Position numbers and translations under genes: made by a program. From Spirochaetales bacterium Spiro_05 (GTDB taxonomy: Bacteria; Spirochaetota; Spirochaetia; Sphaerochaetales; Sphaerochaetaceae), in assembly GCA_001603115.1 (NCBI GenBank), contig LVBG01000049.1, positions 1 through 32,334 on the forward strand: a stretch of 32,334 bases of DNA, given 5' to 3'. The notes below the pieces were generated by a model, which had not been told where the DNA came from, did no database searches, and worked only from the letters and a program-made list of their open reading frames with translations. Positions 5,948 to 28,325 of the stretch are shown piece after piece (position 1 is the stretch's first letter; every line of letters starts with the position of its first letter).

Positions 5948-5979
5948 AGTAGTATAAAACAATCATGGCTACCAGTCCA
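5948..5979. promoter_or_regulatory. Divergent promoters sharing one symmetric -10 (LysM gene and PBP gene)
   Basis: Plus strand: TATAAA at 5953-5958 has its last base exactly 7 positions before the PBP ATG at 5965, placing the predicted start on the ATG itself. Minus strand: TATACT at 5956-5951 overlaps it, with TGGACT (5979-5974) 17 bases upstream, giving a start near 5944 and a leader of about 20 bases for the LysM gene. The only -35-like match for the plus strand is TCGACA at 5927-5932, 20 bases away. The two genes are therefore likely to compete for one polymerase-binding site. Confidence 0.5.
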
Positions 5980-7632
5980 AAACACTCGTATATACGGTTC
6001 TTCGCAGTGGTTGTTGCCCTCCTTTTGGGCCTTATTCTGGTCAGATTGGCATTTCTGACCCTCCACAACCCTATTGCGAGCAAACCATACACCAACCCGC
6101 AGGTAGCCTCAAAGGTGGTGCGAGGCACCATCTATGACCGAAATCATCGAATCCTGGCAATACAAACACCCTATTGGGGAGTCTATTTCCATCTCAACGC
6201 CATCAAAGACCTTCAGCTGGTAAGCGAGCTTGTCGCTCCTTATGTACAGATGAGCCCCCAACAGGTCCAGGATAAAGCAAACGAGTACACAACCTACGCC
6301 CAGATCAAAGCAAGAATCGATGAGAACCAGGTGCCGGCCCTCCTTGCAGCCTTGGAGAAGCACAAGCTCACCAAAGAGGTGACGGTGGAAAAAAGGATGG
6401 GGAGAACCTATCCTGCCCTCTTCCATGCAGCACAGACACTGGGGTTCATCAACTCAGAACAGGAGGGGATTGAGGGTGTGGAACTGAGTCAGGAGCGGTA
6501 CCTCAACCCCTACCCAGAGGTTGGGCAGGGTGAAGTCACCTATGGTGAGGACATCACCCTCACCTTGGATCTGGATGTCCAATACGCCCTTGATGTCCAG
6601 CTGCAGCTGATAGCGGATGAGCACAATCCCGATTACGCCATGGCCCTGGTGCTGGATGCAACCAATGGCGACATCCTGGGTATGTCCAGCTATCCTTGGT
6701 ACGATGTGAATGCCCTGTCAACCAGCACCGCTGTTCAGCGCAAGAACCACGCCGCAAACCTCTTGTTCGAGCCAGGTTCTGTTTTCAAGCTCTTCAGCTT
6801 GGCAACGGTTCTCCAAGCAGGAGAAGCAGATGTTCACGAGCCATTTGTTTGTGATGGTTCGTACACATTCTCCACCGGGTCCTCGAACGTCACCATCAAC
6901 TGCACGGCAAAACACGGGGTGATCGACCCCGAAACCATGATCGCAAAGTCGTGCAACGGGGCTATCGTGCACTGGGCGATGCAGACAGACCCCACCGTCT
7001 TCTACCAGACACTCTCGCTTCTGGGCTTCAACGCAAGCTACGACATCGGTCTCCCTTCCCGACCAAGAGCCCAGATAGCTTCACCTTCCGCCTGGTCTGG
7101 ACGATCACAAGCGACCATCTCGTTCGGTCAGGAGCTGCTTGCAAGCGCTTTGCACCTTGCAACGGCCGCTACCGCCCTCACCACGGAGGGGGAACTGCTC
7201 AAGCCCCATCTCATCCTCAACCGAAGCAACCCGGTGACCTCGGAGAAGACCTACCAGCGTGAACGAACCGTCCTTGCGAAGGTGTTCTCCAGCGAGGTCA
7301 CCCAAACCGTGCGAGAAGGCATGAAGCGAGCAACCGAGGAAGGGGGAACAGGGGTAAGGGCTGTCGTGGAAGGTGTGGATGTCGGTATCAAAACCGGAAC
7401 TGCGCAGATACTGAACCCCGAAACCAATACCTATGCAGATGGAACAGTTTTGGCTTCAAGCCTTGCCATGGTACCGATCGACAACCCCCGCTACATCATC
7501 TACTTCGGCGCAGGCAACCCCAAGGGCAATACCATCTGGGGATCGAATATCGCAGGACCGGCAATCGCCAACGTGGTGAAATCCCTTCTCAGCCAAGGTA
7601 AACTCGTGGCCAAGGATACTGCAATCCGTTAG
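5965..7632 (+). CDS. ftsI: Class B penicillin-binding protein / FtsI-like transpeptidase
   Basis: This D,D-transpeptidase cross-links peptidoglycan, most likely at the septum with FtsW. The 555-residue protein has one N-terminal membrane anchor (about 12-33), a PBP-dimer domain including RGTIYDRNHRILA (53-65), and a transpeptidase domain with all three catalytic motifs: SVFK (272-275), SCN (329-331) and KTG (476-478). Length fits FtsI/PBP2B rather than the longer PBP2 of elongation. There is no Shine-Dalgarno before the ATG, and a TATAAA box sits at the distance expected for a leaderless message. The stop codon overlaps that of the convergent flhF-like gene by 4 bases. In many bacteria ftsI lies inside the dcw cluster between ftsL and murE; here it is separate. 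FtsI versus another class B PBP cannot be settled by eye. Confidence 0.88.
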   Translation: MATSPKHSYIRFFAVVVALLLGLILVRLAFLTLHNPIASKPYTNPQVASKVVRGTIYDRNHRILAIQTPYWGVYFHLNAIKDLQLVSELVAPYVQMSPQQVQDKANEYTTYAQIKARIDENQVPALLAALEKHKLTKEVTVEKRMGRTYPALFHAAQTLGFINSEQEGIEGVELSQERYLNPYPEVGQGEVTYGEDITLTLDLDVQYALDVQLQLIADEHNPDYAMALVLDATNGDILGMSSYPWYDVNALSTSTAVQRKNHAANLLFEPGSVFKLFSLATVLQAGEADVHEPFVCDGSYTFSTGSSNVTINCTAKHGVIDPETMIAKSCNGAIVHWAMQTDPTVFYQTLSLLGFNASYDIGLPSRPRAQIASPSAWSGRSQATISFGQELLASALHLATAATALTTEGELLKPHLILNRSNPVTSEKTYQRERTVLAKVFSSEVTQTVREGMKRATEEGGTGVRAVVEGVDVGIKTGTAQILNPETNTYADGTVLASSLAMVPIDNPRYIIYFGAGNPKGNTIWGSNIAGPAIANVVKSLLSQGKLVAKDTAIR

Positions 7633-8627
7633 TGCGAGGGGAAAAAGTGGGAAGCGTCCAGGCTGAACAGCTTGAGGCGGGGGAGCAGGACAGAAGCTTC
7701 GGCCTGTGCAAAATCCTCAGGTATCTCTTGTCCGTCCGCCATATACAGCAAGGCAAGCCTGCTCTTATCCAAGAATGTGAGAATGTTGCCGATCGTGGTG
7801 GTCTCATCGAGTTTGGTCACAATCACCGCATCGAGAGCATGCGAACCAAACTCCTCGTATTGGGAGAGCAGATCCCCCACCTTTGCACTGGCACTGACAG
7901 TAAGGATGCGGCTTGTCTGCTCCGAGGGCAGGATGGTGAGCAATGAGCGAAGATCCTCGCGCAAGAACTCATCCTTATTGCTGCTTCCGCTGGTATCCAC
8001 AAAGACATGGTCGAACTCAGCAAGCGAGGACATAAGATGTTGTGCTGTTTGGACGGAGTCAGCCTCAAAGAGCGGGAGCGAGAAATTCTTGCAAAGCTCG
8101 CGGACCTGCTGGACAGCTCCAATTCGGTGCACATCAAAGCTCAATACCGCGACCTTGCGTCCCTGACGGGAGCGCATATGAAGGGCGGCTTTCACCAAGC
8201 TGGTGGTTTTCCCCACCCCGGCAAGGCCCATCAGGACCAAAAATTTTTGGTTGACCTCGCCTGAGAAGACCAAATCCTCAAAAAGACGCCGGACCAGCAG
8301 AATCTCAACCTCGGCCTTCTCAGATCCGCTTGCCAAGGCAAACTCATCAGCAAGCGATGGGCTCAGATCGTTCGCGAGCAACAAAGACTGAAGGTAGGCA
8401 AAGGCATCATAGGACTCCTGTTCCGGCACTGCCTCATCCTCAGCCATCGGCTCAATCGGTGGTTCGGCAACCAGGTAGAAGGTAATCCTGCAAGCCTGTT
8501 TTCGGGAGAGGGCGGAGCCTTTGCTGAAATCCTTGCGCGTATGAACGCGCACTGTATTGCCGTACTCACGTCTGGCCTGTTTCAGTGCGCTCTCATAATC
8601 GGTGGATTCAAGCGTAAGGAATTCCAA
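7629..8627 (-). CDS. flhF: FlhF-like SRP-family GTPase
   Basis: FlhF is the third SRP-type GTPase (with Ffh and FtsY) and normally directs flagellar placement at the pole. The 332-residue protein has the FlhF N-terminal motif (about 5-23, ALKQARREYG), an acidic linker (60-75), then the NG domain: G1 GLAGVGKT (134-141), G2 DVHRIGA (165-171), G3 VDTSGSS (210-216) and G4 TKLDE (271-275). The usual G3 is DTAGR; here the arginine is replaced by serine. The start is TTG at 8627, chosen because AGGAGG lies 5 bases upstream, overlapping the hslU stop. It is the last gene of the dcw-hslUV operon and no flagellar gene is nearby. It could be a relic of a flagellar operon or a GTPase with a new role. Family confidence is high, function low. 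Confidence 0.82.
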   Translation of the reverse strand: MEFLTLESTDYESALKQARREYGNTVRVHTRKDFSKGSALSRKQACRITFYLVAEPPIEPMAEDEAVPEQESYDAFAYLQSLLLANDLSPSLADEFALASGSEKAEVEILLVRRLFEDLVFSGEVNQKFLVLMGLAGVGKTTSLVKAALHMRSRQGRKVAVLSFDVHRIGAVQQVRELCKNFSLPLFEADSVQTAQHLMSSLAEFDHVFVDTSGSSNKDEFLREDLRSLLTILPSEQTSRILTVSASAKVGDLLSQYEEFGSHALDAVIVTKLDETTTIGNILTFLDKSRLALLYMADGQEIPEDFAQAEASVLLPRLKLFSLDASHFFPSH

Positions 8628-8635
8628 ACTCCCTC

Positions 8636-10015
8636 CTATAGGATGAACTTCGAGAGATCCTGGTCCTGGATGACATCACCTAGCCGTTCATCCACATAGG
8701 CACTGGTGATGGTGATGCTCTGGCCGCTGAGCTCGTCAGCACTGAAGGAGAGCTCCTCAAGCAGCTTCTCCATGATGGTGAACAACCGTCTTGCTCCGAT
8801 GTTGTCGTTGGAGGAGTTCACCTCATATGCTATCTCACTGATGCGACGGATCGCTGCATCCTCAAACTGGATCTCCACCCCTTCAGTCTTCAGAAGTTCA
8901 CGATACTGCATCGTGATGGCATTTGCCGGTTCTGTAAGAATCCGATAGAAATCGTTGCTGGTCAAGTCATCGAGTTCTACACGCAGGGGAAAGCGTCCCT
9001 GCAGTTCAGGAATGAGATCACTGGGCTTGGAGACATGAAAGGCCCCGCTGGCGATGAAGAGGATGTGGGTGGTATCGATGACCCCCCACTTGGTGGACAC
9101 GCTGGTTCCTTCGACAATGGGAAGGATGTCCCGCTGCACCCCTTCTCGGGAGACGTCGATGCCTGAACCTCCGCTGCCGCTCTTGGCAACCTTGTCGATC
9201 TCATCGATGAAGACGATGCCCATCTGCTCCACACGTTCCTTGGCCTCGTCGATGGCGCGGTCGTTGTCAACCGCCTTCTCCGTTTCTTCCTCGGTGAAAA
9301 TCTCTCGTGCCCGCTTCACGGTGAGCTTGCGGTTGTGTGCCTTGCCGTTGCCGAAGATCGAACCCAAACTCTGCATTGCTTCCTGCAGCTCTTCCATATT
9401 CGGTTGTCCGAGCACCTCGATGCCCACACGCTTCCTGCTCTGGACGTTGATTTCCACTTCACGATCATCGAACTTTCCATCACGCAACATACGACGGAAC
9501 CGTTCCCGCGTCGATTTCTGGCTGTCGGTATAGGAAGTGCCCACCTCGATGACATCCACCGAAGGGTCTGTTTGTATCTGGGGGAGGAGGATGTCCAAAA
9601 GCCGTTCCTCCACCCGCATCTGAACCTTCTCTTGCTCCCGCTGCGCGAGTTCGGCTTTCACCTGCTGTACAGCGATGCTCATCAGGTCGCGGATGATCGA
9701 CTCGACATCCCTGCCCACATATCCCACTTCGGTGTATTTGGTTGCTTCAACCTTGATGAACGGCGCATTGGAAAGCTTTGCGATTCTTCTGGCTATCTCC
9801 GTTTTTCCCACCCCGGTAGGTCCGATCATGATGATGTTTTTCGGGCTTACCTCGTCGCGGATGTCGAGCGGAAGCCGCTTGCGCCTTGTGCGGTTGCGTA
9901 TGGCCACCGCTATGGTGCGTTTCGCCTGATTCTGTCCGATGATATATTTGTCAAGTTCGCTGACGATTTGGGAAGGCTTGAGCTCATCAAGCTTCCTGCT
10001 TGCTGTATGTTCCAT
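8636..10015 (-). CDS. hslU: HslU, ATPase subunit of the HslUV protease
   Basis: HslU is the AAA+ unfoldase that feeds substrates to the HslV peptidase. The 459-residue length is normal. Visible motifs are an N-terminal YIIGQNQAKR, Walker A GPTGVGKT (65-72), the pore GYVG loop (YVGRDVES), an inserted I-domain with charged helices (about 110-230), Walker B GIVFIDEIDKVA, a sensor region (GRFPLRVEL), and the C-terminal tail ending KFIL, which docks into HslV on activation. It starts 3 bases after the hslV stop and is followed 8 bases later by the flhF-like gene. Confidence 0.97.
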   Translation of the reverse strand: MEHTASRKLDELKPSQIVSELDKYIIGQNQAKRTIAVAIRNRTRRKRLPLDIRDEVSPKNIIMIGPTGVGKTEIARRIAKLSNAPFIKVEATKYTEVGYVGRDVESIIRDLMSIAVQQVKAELAQREQEKVQMRVEERLLDILLPQIQTDPSVDVIEVGTSYTDSQKSTRERFRRMLRDGKFDDREVEINVQSRKRVGIEVLGQPNMEELQEAMQSLGSIFGNGKAHNRKLTVKRAREIFTEEETEKAVDNDRAIDEAKERVEQMGIVFIDEIDKVAKSGSGGSGIDVSREGVQRDILPIVEGTSVSTKWGVIDTTHILFIASGAFHVSKPSDLIPELQGRFPLRVELDDLTSNDFYRILTEPANAITMQYRELLKTEGVEIQFEDAAIRRISEIAYEVNSSNDNIGARRLFTIMEKLLEELSFSADELSGQSITITSAYVDERLGDVIQDQDLSKFIL

Positions 10016-10018
10016 TGC

Positions 10019-10555
10019 TTATAATACCTCTACGTGAATCGAGTCATCGGTGTAGATGCACAGCGTTGCTGCGATTTCCACACTCTTTCTTGCTATCTCG
10101 CTGGCAGAGAGCGTCGGACTGGCGTCAAGATAAGCCAAAGCAGCACTGAGAGCATAATTGCCGCCACTGCCGATGCCAATGGCATCGCGCTCGGGATCGA
10201 CCACGTCCCCTGCCCCGTTTATCAAGAAAATGCGCTTGCCGTCGCTGACCAGCATCATGGCCTCAAGCTGACGAAGTTGCTTGTCGACCCTCCACTGCTT
10301 GGCAAGCTCGACTGCAGACCGGGTGAGATCCCCGTTGAACTGCTTGAGCTTTGCCTCGAACAGCTCGAACAAGGTGAAGGCATCTGCGGTGGTACCTGCA
10401 AACCCGGTGATCACCTTGCCATCATACAGGGTTCGTACCTTGTGTGCATTCGATTTGAGAATGGTGTCACCGGCAGTCACCTGCCCGTCCCCTGCTATTG
10501 CCACATGCCCGTCCTTGCGGACTGCTACGATGGTTGTTCCTTTGAAACTACTCAT
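10019..10555 (-). CDS. hslV: HslV, peptidase subunit with short CodW-like N-terminal extension
   Basis: HslV is the proteasome-like threonine peptidase of the HslUV complex. The frame is open to 10690, but the ATG at 10555 is preferred: GGAAGG lies 7 bases upstream, and the protein (178 residues) then begins [17 protein letters not shown]. The conserved TTI.AVR follows six residues rather than directly after Met. This resembles the N-terminus of Bacillus CodW, so either a propeptide is removed or the N-terminal serine acts. Other family motifs are [21 protein letters not shown] and [11 protein letters not shown]. It overlaps the upstream xerC-like gene by 8 bases (ATGAGTAG). The order xer-hslV-hslU matches codV-codW-codX of Firmicutes. 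Confidence 0.95.
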
Positions 10556-11441
10556 GCTGCTTCCTTCCATGGGGGTGGCACGCCTCATAGACGCGAGCCA
10601 GCCGTTCTTTTGATACATGGGTATAGATTTGCGTGGTGGAGATGCTTTGGTGTCCGAGCAGTTCCTGTACCAAGCGGATATCGGCCCCATTGTCCAGAAG
10701 ATGGGTGGCGTAGGTGTGTCTCAGCACATGGGGTGTGAAGTTCTTCTGCCATCCCAGCCTTCTTCCGTATGTGGCAAACATACTACCAATGGTGCTCATC
10801 GGCAACTGTTTTCCTTTGTTTGAGACGATGAGATAGGGAGTATCGAAGCGTTCATGCTTCATGCTCAGATAGGAGGAGAGCAAGGATTGGGTACGTTTGG
10901 TATAAAAGACATACCGCATCCTTTTCCCTTTTCCCAGCACCCTGATCCGCAGCACCTCCTTCTCGATATCCTCTTCCCTGATGGAGCGCAGCTCACTGAT
11001 GCGGCAACCCGTATCGTAAAGCAGGCTGAACACAAGCTGGTCGCGGGCAGAGGGGAAATCATGCCAGGGGAGGCTGAGCAGGCTTGTCACCTCACTGACA
11101 GTCAGAACGGTCGGCAAGTGGCTTTCATGGCGATGGACACTGATGAGCGCGAACGGATTGGCAGAGCACACTTGCTTGCGTACCAAGGAGGTGTAAAAGG
11201 TACGGCAACAGCTGATCTTCCGGTTCACCGTCGCTTCCTGGTATCGCTTTTCCTTGTTCATGTGGCGGATGAACATCAGGGCATCTTCACGCTGAACCTC
11301 AGCCAACGTGATGCCCAGGCCGTGCACGTAGGATGCAAACTGTGCCAAATCACGCCCATAGCTGGTGAGGGTGTGTTCGCTTCTGCCCCTCACCGTTCGT
11401 TCCGTCTCGAGAAAAGCCTCGACCAAATGCTCATCAGTCAT
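10548..11441 (-). CDS. xerC: Tyrosine recombinase, XerC/CodV-like
   Basis: With its partner this enzyme resolves chromosome dimers at dif. From the ATG at 11441 (297 residues) all catalytic residues are present: Arg147 in CRISELR, Lys in the GKGKR loop (about 171-173), His238 and Arg241 in [12 protein letters not shown], His264 in LGHQ, and Tyr273 in QIYTH. The N-terminal core-binding SAM-like domain is complete. The 11441 start is chosen over 11489 because it removes a non-homologous leader and gives an 8-base overlap with dprA (ATGACTGA), the junction type seen repeatedly here. Placement directly before hslV-hslU supports the CodV/XerC label. Which of the two window recombinases is XerC or XerD is inferred from context only. 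Confidence 0.87.
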
Positions 11442-12309
11442 ACTGCAGACTATACCATGCTGAACCAAACCGATACAACGCATCGCCACTGGTGGTCTGC
11501 CTCAGTTGCACTGAAGCAGACCAATGAAGGAGGGATGCAAGCTCTGCATAGGATGCGAACACAGGACATCCCATCTCAAATAAGGCACGGCTGCCCTCTC
11601 CCAGCGGCCCGGAGCGCAGGGCCTCTGCATGCACATAGACATCCCGTCCTGCATCCAAGGCTGATGTGGCACAGGCAAGGGCGCCGGAACGAAGAGGCGC
11701 CTGAAGCACGACGGTCACCATCCCCAATGCAGTCGAAACGGCGTTGCGGGCAAGACAGCGGAATGGCAGGGCCTGGTCATCGGGCTCGAAGGGGGAGAGC
11801 AGATTTGCCTGGGAAAGCAGGGTGTTCGACTGGATGCGTTTGGTGGCAAGCCCTGCGTCACACACCACATACCCATCGTTTCCCAGGTCCCCGATCGCGT
11901 ACAGGCAACCCCGGTCGCTGCCAATACTGTTGCTCATGACCAAATCACACCCATTGGCCGATGCCTCAAGAGCGAAAGCATAGGCAAGATGCGAGCCTTG
12001 CCCATCAGGGTAGCGGGTTCCACAAACGGTGAGAAGCTGTGAACCCGCTTGGGGGAGCTGGCCTTGGTAGAAGAGACGGAATGGTGGATTCTCAAGCTCT
12101 GCAAGCGTTGCAGGATAGCTGGGCATACCAAAAAAGCAGACGTTGGCCTTTCCGTCAGCAAGAAAGCTGAGCATACGCTCCAAACGTGTCCTCATCTTTC
12201 CCAGCCGCCTGAGCAGAGACGAGAGAGAAGGGTTTTGGTTAGCAAGTTCCACTTTCTCACTCGTGGAGAGAGGCAAGAGGCTGATGGCAAGCAAGACGGA
12301 GAGTTTCAT
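11434..12309 (-). CDS. dprA: Divergent DprA/Smf-family DNA-processing protein
   Basis: DprA binds incoming single-stranded DNA and loads RecA during transformation; many non-competent bacteria also keep it. The 291-residue protein has the family sequence [19 protein letters not shown] (about 64-82), a Rossmann start [11 protein letters not shown], an RN.V.TALGM region corresponding to the usual RNR.iaglS, an [20 protein letters not shown] strand-helix, and a C-terminal LFEMGCPVF element. The normally strict SGlA.GID motif reads SNSIGSDRG, so the fold is kept but this loop has diverged. The N-terminal residues [10 protein letters not shown] resemble the usual start. It follows the permease gene after 32 bases and overlaps xerC by 8. 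In Treponema and Firmicutes topA normally sits between dprA and the recombinase; here it is missing. Confidence 0.78.
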
Positions 12310-22764: not shown

Positions 22765-24360
22765 TTATCGGTTGGGATTGAAAATGTTGTAATCGATGTC
22801 GCTGAAAATGCTGTTGCGCTTCTCTGCCTTCACCAACCACTCGGTATTCACCGCATTCTTGCACATATTCCCGTAGACCACATTGAAATTCTTCAGATGG
22901 TCTTTCAAACGCTTTTCTGCATACTCAGTGCTGCTCTTGTTGAAGAGAATGAAGGGCCAGTCACTCGCCATGGAAAGAAGCACTTCCCTTGCAGCCTGGT
23001 TGAGGAATCTCTGCTTGAGGCTGATCTGGTCACTGAACCGCAGGCTCAACTCTTCCATCCTCTCGATTGCCTTGTGGATATGCCGGTAGGTCCACGCATT
23101 CGCCCCATCCAGCCAGACTGCGCTGTAGCCGCCTTGGCCCCACGAGGAGAATGCAGGCCGTGCAGTCTGCAAGGTGGATCCCTCCTTCGAAAGAAAAGCG
23201 GAGGGAGAGGTCAACGCCACCGTTTGTCCGGGTTCGGCAACAAGACGGATGACCTGCTCAAGCCAATCGATTCCCTCAAACCACCAGTGGCCGAACAGCT
23301 CGGCATCAAACCCAAGGGTAAACAGCGGCTGGTTCTCCATGGAAGGGGCAAGGTCAGAGCCCTTGCGTGTGAGGTTGTAGAGGAAGTTTCGGGCATGCTC
23401 ACGAACTTTCGCCTGGGCAAGCTCACGGCGGTACGGTATCTTCTGGTCAGTTTGCCCGGTGATCGCCCAGTACTTGTAGCCGGTGAAGACACGAACCTCA
23501 GGCTCGTGGATGTACGGCTTGATGTACTCCATCGGAAGATCGTAACCGATGTCCCGATAGAATTCACGGTATACCCTGTCTGTCGGATAGCCGCTGCTGT
23601 TGGACCAGACCAGACTGGTGCCCTGGAAATCACGGGGGAAGGCGGCAACACTGTTTGGACAGCGAACCGGACGGTAATCACCATACTGGACCTTGTCCTG
23701 CGAGAGGAGCATGGACTGGCTTGCTGTCTGGAACCAGTTGATACCGTGATACTTCAGATTCTCCTCAAGACCGGGGTAGTAGCCGCACTCTGGCAACCAG
23801 AAACCTTTGGGAAGGTGTCCGAAGGTGGTCAAAAAGGATTGCACACCCAGTTCAACCTGGGCATTGATGGCAGTGGGATACTCTTTGTAGAGCGGAAGAT
23901 ATGCGTGGGTTGCCGCTGTGGTGGCAAGCTCCAGATGACCGCTGGTTTCCAGTGCCTTGAAGGCATCAAGGATGTTGTTGCGGTACAGGTCCTGATAGTC
24001 GCTGAGATTCTGCTTTGCCTGGCCGAGATAGAACTGTGCCATCTCCAAGAACTCAGGCTGACTCTCACTGCAGCGCTGCACTTCCTTGTGGCCAAGTTCG
24101 ATATGGCGTTCCAGATACTGCAAAAACCTCTCCTGAAGGATGGGGTCACTGAGCATGCAGCACAAGGTTGGGGAGAGACTGATGGTGAACTTGAAGCTGA
24201 TGCGCTCTGCTTTCAGCTTGTTGAACATCCTCAGCAGGGGAAGATAACTTTCGCTGATCGACTCGAACAACCAATCCTCTTCCAGAAATCTTGGATATTC
24301 GGGATGCCGGACAAACGGAAGATGGGCATTCAGGATGAAGGCCACAGACGTATTGGACAT
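22765..24360 (-). CDS. GH57 (DUF1957) 1,4-alpha-glucan branching-enzyme-like protein
   Basis: The family forms alpha-1,6 branches in glycogen-like glucans. At 531 residues the length matches bacterial and archaeal GH57 branching enzymes. Visible motifs are an N-terminal FILNAHLPFVRHPE (8-21), ATHAYLPL (150-157), the nucleophile strand GFWLPECGY with Glu191, the acid/base strand LGFDAELFGHWWFEG with Asp352, and a C-terminal helical domain (about 410-520). Both catalytic residues are therefore present. It overlaps the DUF4912 gene by one base (TAATG), with AGGGGG upstream, and is followed by an intrinsic terminator. Branching enzyme rather than amylase is inferred from family. Confidence 0.88.
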   Translation of the reverse strand: MSNTSVAFILNAHLPFVRHPEYPRFLEEDWLFESISESYLPLLRMFNKLKAERISFKFTISLSPTLCCMLSDPILQERFLQYLERHIELGHKEVQRCSESQPEFLEMAQFYLGQAKQNLSDYQDLYRNNILDAFKALETSGHLELATTAATHAYLPLYKEYPTAINAQVELGVQSFLTTFGHLPKGFWLPECGYYPGLEENLKYHGINWFQTASQSMLLSQDKVQYGDYRPVRCPNSVAAFPRDFQGTSLVWSNSSGYPTDRVYREFYRDIGYDLPMEYIKPYIHEPEVRVFTGYKYWAITGQTDQKIPYRRELAQAKVREHARNFLYNLTRKGSDLAPSMENQPLFTLGFDAELFGHWWFEGIDWLEQVIRLVAEPGQTVALTSPSAFLSKEGSTLQTARPAFSSWGQGGYSAVWLDGANAWTYRHIHKAIERMEELSLRFSDQISLKQRFLNQAAREVLLSMASDWPFILFNKSSTEYAEKRLKDHLKNFNVVYGNMCKNAVNTEWLVKAEKRNSIFSDIDYNIFNPNR

Positions 24361-25091
24361 TACAGAACCCCCTTGCTCAAGGTCTGGGCGATCTCACGAA
24401 GCACTGCATTGTCTACAATCTCCCCTTCACGAGTCACCAGCGAAGAAAAGTGCATGGTAAACAGATCCCCGTCCATGGCCAGCTCATCAACATGCTCCTG
24501 CCAGTACGAGGGAAACGTTTCTACACTCTTGCTCTGTGCGAGGGACATCTCATTGCCCTTCTTGTCACGCCAACACAGGTCGACCACGTAGGAAGAGCCG
24601 ATGTTCGGCAGATTGATGTTCCATTGGGTATCTTCCAGGGAGATGCTGATGTCAAACGTCCTCACCCCCTTGGTGCTCAGGTTGGTCTCCTGCACCCGCA
24701 AAAAGAGGTTGCTTTTCTCCTGTCCGTCCTCACCGAAAATCATCAGATTTGAAGCCGGGGAGAGCGACCAGTAGGCAAAGGCCCACTGGGGATCACGCAG
24801 CAAGAGGTGAATGGAAGTATCGAGGTACGATTCAGGAAGATCCTCAACACCGGGGAGCCCATTGATATGCTGCTTATTCCCACGGAAGTCGGTAAGTGCG
24901 TTGCAGTATCGGTTTCGGTTGATCTTTCCCTTCATTGCAGAAGGAAGCTCATCATCCTGTTCCCCAAAAGCTTCCTCGAGTGCATCGATGAGTTCTTCGC
25001 GGTCGAGAGACTGCCAGTTGCTCAGCCGTTCTTGCTGGGCAATGTACTGCAGCTCGGTAGTAGACAAGGAATCAATATTGATGAGAATCAT
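24360..25091 (-). CDS. DUF4912-domain protein
   Basis: This 243-residue soluble protein has unknown function. An N-terminal helical segment (about 8-45, LSTTELQYIAQQERL) resembles a Rho-N/SAP-type helix pair and is followed by a basic stretch. The DUF4912 core (about 80-230) carries LPESYLDTSIHLLLRDP and WAFAYWSL, then beta-rich sequence with conserved tryptophans (FDISISLEDTQWNINLP, YVVDLCWRD). This core looks like an Ig- or carbohydrate-module-like fold, but that is a guess. It is coupled to the GH57 branching enzyme by a 1-base overlap, so a role in glucan metabolism is likely. GGGAG lies 7 bases before the ATG. Confidence 0.75.
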   Translation of the reverse strand: MILINIDSLSTTELQYIAQQERLSNWQSLDREELIDALEEAFGEQDDELPSAMKGKINRNRYCNALTDFRGNKQHINGLPGVEDLPESYLDTSIHLLLRDPQWAFAYWSLSPASNLMIFGEDGQEKSNLFLRVQETNLSTKGVRTFDISISLEDTQWNINLPNIGSSYVVDLCWRDKKGNEMSLAQSKSVETFPSYWQEHVDELAMDGDLFTMHFSSLVTREGEIVDNAVLREIAQTLSKGVL

Positions 25092-25180: not shown

Positions 25181-25888
25181 TCAGCTGAAGAGCGTAAGCA
25201 GGGCAAGGTCGACCATTGCGTCGAAGGTGCTCTGCCGTTGTGCAGGGGGAACCTGCTCACCGGTAAGCAGGGAATCGCTTACGGTAAGCAGGGTAAGCGC
25301 CTCCACATGCTTGAGGCGGGCAAGGGTGTAGAGCTCACACGTCTCCATGTCTATGGCCATCGTTCCCACCGACTGGGCGATCAGCTTCTTCTCCTCCCCT
25401 TTCTGGTCGTAGAACTGGTCGCTGGTAAACACATTTCCCACAGCGAAGCCCATCTTCGCTGCCTGGGCATGCCCAACGGCCTTTGCCAGCAGATTGAACG
25501 AGGCGGTAGGGGCGAACTGATAGGAGCCGAATCGGCTGGGATTCATCGCGCTGTCGTTGTCCGCTGCCTGGGCAATGAGTACATCCTTGAGATGGAGGTC
25601 TTCGCTCATCGTACCGCAGGTGCCGACACGTACCAGACGTTTGGCGTGGTAGGTGTCGATCAGCTCTTGGGCATAGATGGAGAAAGAAGGCATACCCATC
25701 CCGGTTCCCTGGACCGAAACGCGGTTGCCTTGCCAGTAGCCGGTAAAGCCCAGCATTCCTCGTATCTCATTATATTGGATGACATCAGTCAGATAGGTTT
25801 GCGCGATGTGACGGGCCCTGAGGGGATCTCCGGGCAAAAGAACGGTATCTGCTACCAGATTGGGATCTGAAACGATATGGATGCTCAT
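25181..25888 (-). CDS. deoD: Purine nucleoside phosphorylase DeoD
   Basis: DeoD splits purine (deoxy)ribonucleosides with phosphate to base and (deoxy)ribose-1-phosphate. From the ATG at 25888 (235 residues) it shows VLLPGDPLRA (16-25), GTGMGMPSFSIY (61-72), VRVGTCG (86-92), the nucleoside-binding AIDMETCELY (178-187) and SDSLLTGE with the catalytic Asp205, the hexameric DeoD pattern. The start is decided by a near-perfect CAGGAGGTG ending 4 bases before the ATG; the open frame to 25948 is not used. It is divergent from the plus-strand GH57 gene. Purine salvage has no obvious link to its glucan-enzyme neighbours. Confidence 0.95.
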   Translation of the reverse strand: MSIHIVSDPNLVADTVLLPGDPLRARHIAQTYLTDVIQYNEIRGMLGFTGYWQGNRVSVQGTGMGMPSFSIYAQELIDTYHAKRLVRVGTCGTMSEDLHLKDVLIAQAADNDSAMNPSRFGSYQFAPTASFNLLAKAVGHAQAAKMGFAVGNVFTSDQFYDQKGEEKKLIAQSVGTMAIDMETCELYTLARLKHVEALTLLTVSDSLLTGEQVPPAQRQSTFDAMVDLALLTLFS

Positions 25889-25919
25889 ACGCACCTCCTG
25901 TCTTATTTTTGCCCAGAAG

Positions 25920-25948
25920 AGGATAAAGTGCAAGACGGCTTCTCCCAA
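25920..25948 (-). promoter_or_regulatory. Candidate deoD promoter
   Basis: On the minus strand TTGGGA (25948-25943) and TATCCT (25925-25920) are 17 bases apart. This predicts a start near 25913 and a leader of about 25 bases containing the strong Shine-Dalgarno. Each hexamer matches consensus at four of six positions. Confidence 0.35.
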
Positions 25949-25974
25949 AAGCCCTGTTGCACATCACTTGGCTG

Positions 25975-25983
25975 TGCTATACT
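25975..25983 (+). promoter_or_regulatory. Extended -10 promoter of the GH57/DUF3536 gene, near-leaderless
   Basis: TGCTATACT is an extended -10 (TGn plus TATACT at 25978-25983). TTGCAC at 25957-25962 is a -35-like match at a short 15-base spacing. The last -10 base is 12 positions before the ATG at 25995, so the message would carry only about 5 untranslated bases. No Shine-Dalgarno is present. Confidence 0.5.
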
Positions 25984-25994
25984 GCCCACGCAAT

Positions 25995-28325
25995 ATGAAA
26001 ACACAGAAACAAGAGAAGACCTCACTGATTCTCCACGGGCATTTTTATCAGCCTCCGCGAGAGAATCCCAGAACGGGAATCATCGGCAAGCAGCTCTCTG
26101 CCAGCCCCTTCCCAGACTGGAACGAACGGATTCATGCTGATTGCTACAGTGCAAACAGCCACTCCCGCTATCTCTCGGGTGTACGAAGAATCCTGAGCAT
26201 GACAAACAACTATGCCTCTATCAGCTTCAACTTCGGACCGACGCTCCTCAGTTGGATGGAAAAGAGGCACCCCAATACGTATGCCTTGATCTTGGAAGCT
26301 GACAAACAGAGCAAAGAGCGGCTTGGACACGGCAATGCCATTGCCCAAGCGTACAACCACTCCATTCTTCCCCTTGCCACCGAGGCGGATGCCAAGGACC
26401 AGATCCTGTGGGGTCTGGATGATTTCTCTCGTCGTTTCGGCCGCGATGCAGAAGGCCTTTGGCTTCCTGAGACGGCAATCAACCCGATGGTGACAGATCT
26501 GCTTGGCGAAGCGGGAGTCAAGTATGTCATCCTCTCGCCATGGCAATGCAAGGCCATACAGTCTGAAGATGGGCAGCGTATCGACCTCAATGGCAAACCC
26601 GCCCCCTATGGCAGGGCGTTCAAGCTGACCGGAGCGAAGGGGAACACCATCAATGCGTTCTTCTACAACCCCCAGCTTGCCGAGGGCATCAGCTTCGGCC
26701 ACTACCTCAGGGATGCAGACATGCTCTATGAGCGCTTGCTGACCATAGCAAAAACCGAAGGCCAGAACCTGATCCATACGGCAACCGACGGAGAGATTTA
26801 CGGTCATCATGAACCCTACGGTGACATGGCCCTCGCCGCCCTGATCAAAAAGGTGCATGACCGCGAGGATTTCCAGTTCACCAACTATGCAACATACCTT
26901 GCACAGCATCCTGCCACTGAAGAAGCCTTTCTTCATGATGGAGAAGAGGCGAAAGGCACCAGCTGGTCGTGCAGCCACGGGGTGTCCCGCTGGTATCGGG
27001 ACTGCGGCTGCCACACCGGTGGTGATGAGAGTTGGAACCAAAAGTGGAGGACTCCCCTGAGGCAAGCTTTCGACCATCTCGCTTGCAAGCTCGATGCCAT
27101 CTTCGAGAAAGAGGTTACCAACCTCCTGGGAACGGAGATGAAGCCTAGGGATCTTTTGCACAGTTTCTCTCCGGTCATCCTGGCACATGAGGATATGGAT
27201 ACGTTCCTCGGCCGGCATACCAAAGATCCCGATACCAAGGAAGCGCTCGCAAAACTCTTGCTCGGCCAGAAGTACAAGCATTTCTCATTTACCAGCTGTG
27301 GTTGGTTCTTCAACGATCTTGCCGGGCTCGAACCAAGGCAGAACATCGTCTATGCCCTGATGGCCTTGCGCCTCTATGAAGGGTTTACCAAGGAGAGCCT
27401 GCTTGAACTCCTGTTGGAAGACCTGCAGAAAGCGAAAGCCAACCGCAAGCAGGACGGAACCGGGAGAACATTGGCTCTTGAGGCAATGAAAGAGCTCAGC
27501 GGAGAGGTTGAGGCAGCCCTCTTCTTCACCCTCAATCGCCGCATTGCCCTGAAAGATCACTATCAGGACAGCTATGGGTACTTCAGACTGGATGAGGTGA
27601 AGCATCAGAACACGGAGACCATGGTGCTTGCGATCAGCAACACCCAATCGCTGGATCGCTATCTGTGCACCATCATCGACCCGCATCCCGAGGCCGCGGT
27701 ACTGCAGTACACGATCACCATCCAGAGCAGGGACGAAGAGAGCCAGACCTACTTCCTCACCCATGAGGACATTCCCTTGCGGATGCGTGACCAGCTGTTC
27801 ACCCAGATCGACCGGAACGTCTGCATGCTGGATGAGAAGCAGATCAAGGAGCTTTCACACAACCTGTATTACTACGCCAGCTTGGCAAAGAATGTCCCCT
27901 ATCTTCCGATGGGGTCTCTCTACCAGCAGCTGATCGGAGCCTCACTAAGTGCCATCAAGAGCTTGTTCACCTATGGAACGCTTACGATGTGGGACGAATT
28001 CAAGAGTGATTTTGAGTTGATGCTCGACTTCTTCCTCAAATACGGAAAACAACCCGATCTGGAGCTGATCGCTTCCATCTTTGATTCGGAAATGATCAAC
28101 ATGGCCAAGAAAGTGCAGACCTACGGACTTCACGATACCAACTGTCGCTTCATGCTGGAATTCTTGGAAATTGTGCGTGAAAAGCGTTTTCAGCCCGATC
28201 TCACCGCCATCCAAGACGCTGTCTATCCCTATCTGTGTATGCAGAAAAAGACAGACAGTAATGCAGACATTGCCTTGATCAATGCCTTGGGAAAGGTGCT
28301 GAACTTTGATTTAGCGATCTGCTAG
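25995..28325 (+). CDS. GH57 glycoside hydrolase with DUF3536
   Basis: This large 776-residue GH57 protein has an N-terminal barrel with LILHGHFYQPPRENP (11-25), the nucleophile strand GLWLPETAI with Glu159, and the acid/base strand TATDGEIYGHHEPYGD with Asp265. It continues into the DUF3536 C-terminal region (about 310-770), rich in helices. Both GH57 catalytic positions are present, so an active alpha-glucan hydrolase or transferase is likely, but the exact reaction is unknown. The frame is open to 25860; ATG 25995 is chosen because homology to GH57 starts just after it and the upstream sequence holds the promoter. With the branching-enzyme-like gene 1.6 kb away it suggests storage-glucan metabolism. 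Its stop overlaps the convergent GNAT stop (CTAG). Confidence 0.85.
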   Translation: MKTQKQEKTSLILHGHFYQPPRENPRTGIIGKQLSASPFPDWNERIHADCYSANSHSRYLSGVRRILSMTNNYASISFNFGPTLLSWMEKRHPNTYALILEADKQSKERLGHGNAIAQAYNHSILPLATEADAKDQILWGLDDFSRRFGRDAEGLWLPETAINPMVTDLLGEAGVKYVILSPWQCKAIQSEDGQRIDLNGKPAPYGRAFKLTGAKGNTINAFFYNPQLAEGISFGHYLRDADMLYERLLTIAKTEGQNLIHTATDGEIYGHHEPYGDMALAALIKKVHDREDFQFTNYATYLAQHPATEEAFLHDGEEAKGTSWSCSHGVSRWYRDCGCHTGGDESWNQKWRTPLRQAFDHLACKLDAIFEKEVTNLLGTEMKPRDLLHSFSPVILAHEDMDTFLGRHTKDPDTKEALAKLLLGQKYKHFSFTSCGWFFNDLAGLEPRQNIVYALMALRLYEGFTKESLLELLLEDLQKAKANRKQDGTGRTLALEAMKELSGEVEAALFFTLNRRIALKDHYQDSYGYFRLDEVKHQNTETMVLAISNTQSLDRYLCTIIDPHPEAAVLQYTITIQSRDEESQTYFLTHEDIPLRMRDQLFTQIDRNVCMLDEKQIKELSHNLYYYASLAKNVPYLPMGSLYQQLIGASLSAIKSLFTYGTLTMWDEFKSDFELMLDFFLKYGKQPDLELIASIFDSEMINMAKKVQTYGLHDTNCRFMLEFLEIVREKRFQPDLTAIQDAVYPYLCMQKKTDSNADIALINALGKVLNFDLAIC

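Follow-up and report, generated by a model that had tools for sequence, protein, structure and literature searches.

FliG binding by Shewanella FlhF requires the first 60 residues, which also suffice for it, and HubP is bound by the NG domain (PMC11236974). The S. putrefaciens protein (FliG interacting domain, FID, in 9en1 and NG domain in 8r9r; PMC11236974) shares the FID fold, a linker and an SRP-type NG domain with the protein described below. Bacillus cereus FlhF has a job beyond flagella, as a secretion factor for one secreted protein (PMC7218170); B. cereus, however, is flagellated and the interaction requires the NG domain. B. subtilis FlhF (2px0) has the NG fold in common with the protein described below and is its best PDB match by sequence (3.5e-29) and by fold. 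The B. subtilis gene presumably sits in a flagellar context, whereas the locus described here has no flagellar gene context. Compared with polar-flagellate FlhF, the family to which this locus belongs (f1, which we read as Sphaerochaetaceae) has no detected flagellum, FliG or FlhG (apart from one generic match), its FID residues are changed and the GTPase motifs have been lost in some lines. Among the papers listed in the literature searches there was no report of FlhF retention in non-flagellate spirochaetes, although an earlier Sphaerochaeta genome description might list the gene; in the literature on FlhF with Sphaerochaeta, FlhF was found only inside a reference list.

The window is the whole stretch of 32,334 nucleotides that was analysed. 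It carries an flhF-derived gene with the following parts:
7629..8627, minus strand: flhF-derived gene, 332 residues, TTG start (profile, fold and tree evidence)
8469..8627, minus strand: N-terminal FID fold, residues 1-53, beta-alpha-beta-beta (AlphaFold2 model and Foldseek)
8529..8549, minus strand: family-specific patch R27-x-H29-x-R31-x-D33, residues 27-33, strand beta-2 (model and alignment)
8268..8405, minus strand: N domain of the NG GTPase, approximately residues 75-120 (structure model)
7674..8252, minus strand: G domain, approximately residues 126-318, motifs complete (Pfam, motifs, model and fold)
8205..8228, minus strand: P-loop GLAGVGKT (motif alignment)
7983..7997, minus strand: G3 motif DTSGS (motif alignment)

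The original prediction had named an FlhF-type GTPase, and this identification has been borne out. The protein matches PF00448 (SRP54 GTPase) at 1.1e-31 in Pfam, and its top NCBIfam matches are FlhF models (PRK12723, 4.7e-33), with 102 bits for TIGR03499, 70 for FtsY and 67 for Ffh. The TIGR03499 cut-off of 174 bits is not reached, and no FlhF model of NCBIfam passes its own cut-off on this protein. Judged by its sequence, the protein is a member of FlhF by descent and is not filed as a functional equivalent under TIGR03499. It has an SRP-type NG GTPase with G1-G5, as expected of an FlhF, and an N-terminal FID/B domain, which is absent from Ffh and FtsY. In a tree of 47 rows, with the FlhF rows trimmed to the portion after residue 55, the FlhF proteins of flagellates and orphans alike were split from Ffh and FtsY at 100/100, with the flagellated spirochaete FlhFs and the window FlhF in one clade. 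When the window row alone was forced onto the Ffh/FtsY side, the AU test did not reject this placement (p 0.099). Taken as sequence evidence, these comparisons show that the gene is a descendant of flagellar FlhF and neither Ffh nor FtsY. The window FlhF is the only SRP54-family GTPase located in its assembly (2.32 Mb, 68.6% complete), where Ffh and FtsY had no match; this is taken as incompleteness because close relatives carry both.

AlphaFold2 modelled residues 1-53 as beta-alpha-beta-beta with a pLDDT of 84.6. A profile search of the FID against the PDB was set aside because chance matches ranked first and 9en1 appeared merely at E 1, and fold comparison was used instead. In Foldseek the first rank went to 9en1, the FID of S. 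putrefaciens FlhF, at a probability of 0.99 but a weak E value of 0.15. When the full-length model was compared, FlhF structures (NG domains) took all of the first three places. The G3 motif was predicted to have lost an arginine conserved in SRP GTPases. The sequence DTSGS is confirmed, and in the eight flagellate FlhFs compared the last residue is K or R (DTIGK, DTMGR and similar); the same position is variable within f1 (L, I, V, H, S, K, R and others), so the lost arginine, though real, is no lesion by itself and was dropped as a mark of decay.

A distant kinship between the FID and Jag_N (PF14804) is suggested, with every score below curated cut-offs. By eye, the two have a similar order of strands and helix. 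Jag_N was matched by 5 of 29 FIDs, with a best E value of 4.5e-4 that does not reach the Pfam gathering score, and the FIDs of G030 and G032 were among the genome Jag_N matches, both below cut-off. A direct hhalign comparison gave a probability of 92.6 and an E value of 4.5e-7, but an identity of just 11%, and the structure 3gku, which we take to be a Jag-type protein, came at rank 8 with the FID in Foldseek (probability 0.60). Most flagellated relatives encode a further Jag_N protein, about 650 residues long and presumably FapA-like, shortly 3' of flhG (L257-L271); the f1 genomes in the relatives set gave no second Jag_N match above cut-off.

The neighbours of the gene in the window, of which hslU, hslV and xerC are names that we presume from the Pfam families, are as follows:
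8628..8635, minus strand: 8-nt hslU/flhF junction, read as the scar of a lost flgB...flhA block (gene-order comparison)
8636..10015, minus strand: hslU (AAA family by Pfam)
10019..10540, minus strand: hslV, start codon approximate (Proteasome family by Pfam)
10548..11489, minus strand: xerC-like recombinase (phage-integrase family by Pfam)
11434..12309, minus strand: dprA-like gene (DprA by Pfam)
5965..7632, plus strand: convergent SpoVD/FtsI-type PBP, a conserved neighbour (Pfam/NCBIfam and locus comparison)

The flhF reading frame, exactly 7629-8627 on the minus strand, begins 8 nt past the hslU stop, directly after hslU as had been predicted, and its 3' end shares 4 nt with the stop of the PBP gene. 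The upstream run of HslU-like AAA, HslV-like proteasome, Xer-type integrase and DprA proteins, claimed to be kept, was recovered by Pfam. The accompanying claim that topA is missing stands for this locus, but the absence is not special: topA would not fit between the dprA and xerC matches of L081, L083, L087 and L088 either, four spirochaete loci with flgB after hslU. The window also holds two GH57-family genes (22765-25091 and 25860-28325), of which one ends in a branching-enzyme C-terminus and the other carries DUF3536, along with a DUF4912 gene in the neighbourhood of mraZ and the fts cluster.

FlhA, FliG_C, FliF and FlhG had no match in the window's assembly (68.6% complete). In the relatives set, none of the 36 f1 genomes, including six assembled as single contigs, has FlhA, FliG_C or FliF, while FlhA and FliF were present in 21 of the 24 genomes outside f1. 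The other three (G037, G038 and G051) come from families f3, f4 and f17, and G037 has a single sub-threshold FliG_C match (7.4e-4). In a census of the class, FlhA was found in 284 of 394 genomes and in none of the 102 genomes of four families, f1 (92), f3 (4), f4 (2) and f17 (4). The predicted loss of flagella is borne out. Neither a flagellum nor FliG, with which a functional FlhF would work, was detected in f1. Cultured, non-motile species of Sphaerochaeta exist. Passages of the preprint PMC12236494 agree on the lack of motility and describe the non-spiral spirochaetes as monophyletic and nearly devoid of motility genes; its main text does not contain the word FlhF. G029, a genome of 3.9 Mb filed in f1, has a normal Jag, but neither HslU nor any SRP GTPase resembling the FlhF query was matched in it, and its assembly or placement may be odd.

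Comparison with flagellated relatives offers an explanation of why flhF lies beside hslU. Thirteen of the 21 FlhA-positive relatives have hslU and flhF on the same contig and strand with flhA just upstream of flhF, and the two genes are about 20-22 kb apart in 12 of them and 9 kb apart in G043. In the other eight, the genes are split over contigs (four), hslU has no match (one) or the two are unlinked (G041, G055 and G058). Downstream of hslU in G059, Pfam identified two rod proteins, which we read as flgB and flgC, and fliE, fliF, fliG, fliI and fliM; flhF precedes flhG there, which encodes a ParA-type protein carrying DQAxxLR, and a sigma factor stands one gene further on. Named records supplied 30 spirochaete loci. 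In all 15 of these outside f1, whose flagellation is read from these genes, flgB-flgC follows hslU, and FlhF follows hslU in 14 of the 15 f1 loci, the fifteenth stopping at a contig edge. The original prediction that flhF stands where the flagellar block would begin therefore agrees with these loci. A similar operon is reportedly present in Borrelia. In all four non-flagellate families flhF comes directly after hslU: in 102 of 103 loci its start lies between -4 and +110 nt relative to the hslU stop, and in the exception, G385, at 499 nt. The simplest reading is that flhF stayed put and the material between hslU and flhF was lost.

This tight spacing, and the still shorter 2 nt between hslU and a gene reduced to the FID in G028 and G317, could also be expected if the FID had become an adaptor that brings substrates to HslUV, or a regulator of this protease. 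Since deletion alone yields the adjacency, no functional tie is needed to explain it, and dprA-xerC-hslV are conserved there too; a role as an HslUV accessory is very unlikely.

The other side of the gene raises a different possibility. FlhF has the fts cluster and the PBP gene as neighbours in the window, and a Jag_N-containing protein acts at midcell, which, with the weak FID-Jag_N kinship, could suggest a division or cell-wall factor acting with the neighbouring PBP/FtsI. For the polar-positioning job tied to division that the original prediction proposed as an example, operon position was the one link found, and the deletion would account for that link with no shared function. The two neighbours do not degrade together, however. 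In a table of 92 rows (one duplicate, L076 = G322), a PBP without SxxK, SxN and KTG adjoins an FlhF with all motifs in 26, and we consider a division factor quite unlikely. Co-decay of FlhF and PBP had been suggested by G282 and G340, which have no FlhF and a PBP without motifs, and was refuted by this wider table. The PBP-like reading frame convergent to flhF has none of the three motifs in 30 genomes of genus g37 and in G282/G340, and the protein looks catalytically dead there; the alignment is tentative, as it matches the window PBP weakly (L196-L239, L249 and L250).

The loss appears to have happened once. A 96-row HslU tree places the 70 non-flagellates on one side of a branch supported at 100/89.6, and in a quick HslU tree f17 branches first, followed by f3, f4 and f1. 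The most economical account of the present distribution needs one change each for the flagellar block and for FID absence, three for FlhG and six for loss of GTPase motifs. FlhG with a DQAxxLR-type motif is still found 3' of flhF in the early branches G037, G038, G065 and G101. Among these genomes without FlhA, the FlhG Walker A looks intact in G038 and is altered in G037, G065 and G101; FlhG homologues with an altered Walker A that keep DQAxxLR in FlhA-less genomes were noted in L046 (4418-5305), L157 and L251. At 1e-10 no FlhG-like protein was found in the 36 f1 genomes of the relatives set save one generic match in G034.

Of 102 complete non-flagellate copies of FlhF, 77 have the P-loop, G2, G3 and G4, six have three of these, 16 have two or fewer and three are FID-only. 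Retention of all four motifs in so many copies, the match of the model to FlhF NG domains and the precedent of B. cereus FlhF with its secreted protein (PMC7218170) would fit a third SRP-like targeting GTPase, whose NG domain would bring certain membrane or secreted proteins to their destination. That the motifs have gone about six times, and that NG is entirely absent in one genus while the FID stays, makes such a GTPase unlikely. The FID-only genes lie in genus g4 (G028, G317 and G374) and consist of 60 residues in G028 and G317. In G374 (L241) the FID domain is present, but the expected start codon is missing and the first in-frame start lies inside the domain. G381 was rejected as FID-only because its gene runs into a contig edge.

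The 103 loci were chosen from FID-positive genomes, so the unbiased figure for retention is that of the class census, in which the FID (FlhF N-domain) profile matched 97 of 102 genomes, 87 of 92 in f1 and 10 of 10 in f3, f4 and f17. In two of the five f1 misses (G282 and G340) hslU abuts the PBP gene, G331 meets a contig edge and two have no hslU match. FlhF is not indispensable, since G282 and G340 have none between hslU and PBP. Selection was estimated by the method of Nei and Gojobori on 23 pairs, which gave 39 defined dN/dS ratios; seven comparisons were dS-saturated and gave no ratio. For the window against G002, dN/dS was 0.14 in the FID and 0.083 in the rest. Ratios of 0.08-0.11 past the FID were found for G022, G023 and G010, which have neither G2 nor G3, and the FID-only pair G317 and G028 gave 0.073, with 1.18 for the four remaining codons.

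The original prediction offered two fates for the gene, a decaying relic or a protein kept for another job. As a relic, flhF would merely have outlasted the deletion and now be on its way out, and the roughly six losses of GTPase motifs, the empty hslU-PBP junction of G282 and G340, the missing start codon of G374 and a dN/dS of 0.28-0.31 past the FID in G014 against G004 and G007, where the P-loop has been lost, all point in that direction. Against it, 34 of the 39 ratios are below 0.25, most motif-less copies included, the N-domain persists across the f1 census, and all 102 complete copies have open frames, even though some share no more than about 30% identity with the window protein. Decay is extremely improbable, and retention for another job is supported in general by selection on flhF after flagellum loss. 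No flagellar gene set with flhG was found elsewhere in the assembly and the tree did not place the protein with FtsY or Ffh; either outcome had been named beforehand as counting against the original prediction.

Which part of the protein matters most is suggested by distant comparisons. Mean pairwise identity is 0.49 for the FID and 0.47 for the G domain among 69 intact f1 copies, and 0.37 and 0.21, respectively, among 17 motif-less rows. High FID ratios occur in G015/G021 (0.48) and G014/G007 (0.38). Since dN/dS of the FID in close pairs is not below that of the NG part, the primacy of the FID rests on the long-range comparison and on the FID-only genus.

The residues conserved in the FID have also changed. 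F4, E6, R35 and F41 are each present in 26-27 of 28 flagellate FIDs and in 0-3 of 93 f1 FIDs, which conserve R27 (90), R31 (91), D/E33 (86), C46 (79) and H29 (69) instead. The eight FIDs of f3, f4 and f17 keep F4 in six cases and E6 in four. F4, E6 and F41 occur together in 24/28 flagellates, 0/93 f1 and 0/8 f3/f4/f17, and R27, R31 and D/E33 occur together in 85/93 f1, 0/28 flagellates and 0/8 f3/f4/f17. Since residues 27, 29, 31 and 33 alternate on strand beta-2 (26-36 in the model), they should share one face. The signature is limited to one clade and counts as a single origin instead of many, which limits its weight as evidence. As the FID binds FliG in Shewanella and FliG was not found here, a partner switch would be the simplest reading.

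The reading that we prefer, with a probability of roughly 0.62, is that the non-flagellate clade deleted its flagellar block and that FlhF was kept by selection as a tether for a client other than the flagellum. Deletion of the block that separated hslU from flhF, together with flagellum loss, would have taken place in the common ancestor of f1, f3, f4 and f17 and left hslU-flhF-flhG. Subsequently, flhG would have been lost in several lines while flhF was kept under purifying selection. The retained protein may act as a two-part tether in which the FID holds another partner by the new conserved face (R27, H29, R31 and D33 on strand beta-2) and the NG domain, kept in most examined species, serves as a GTP-controlled anchor or targeting switch. 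Several lines would then have discarded the NG switch, with one genus reduced to a free-standing FID. It is possible, at somewhat short of even odds, that a flagellar positioning switch has been rewired so as to organise non-motile spirochaete cells in general. The FID, with a new partner, would form the core, and the control layers, first FlhG and then the GTPase, would be removable and have been dropped stepwise, with the free-standing FID of 60 residues as the end point.

FlhF has been studied mainly as a flagellar placement factor, and here it was kept clade-wide after the flagellum went, with intermediates that span the full switch to a single domain. Because FlhF was kept without a flagellum, its non-flagellar activity is open to study without the flagellum interfering. 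The free-standing FID offers a small bait for a partner search, and the question of FlhF/FlhG turning into a general cell organiser becomes testable.
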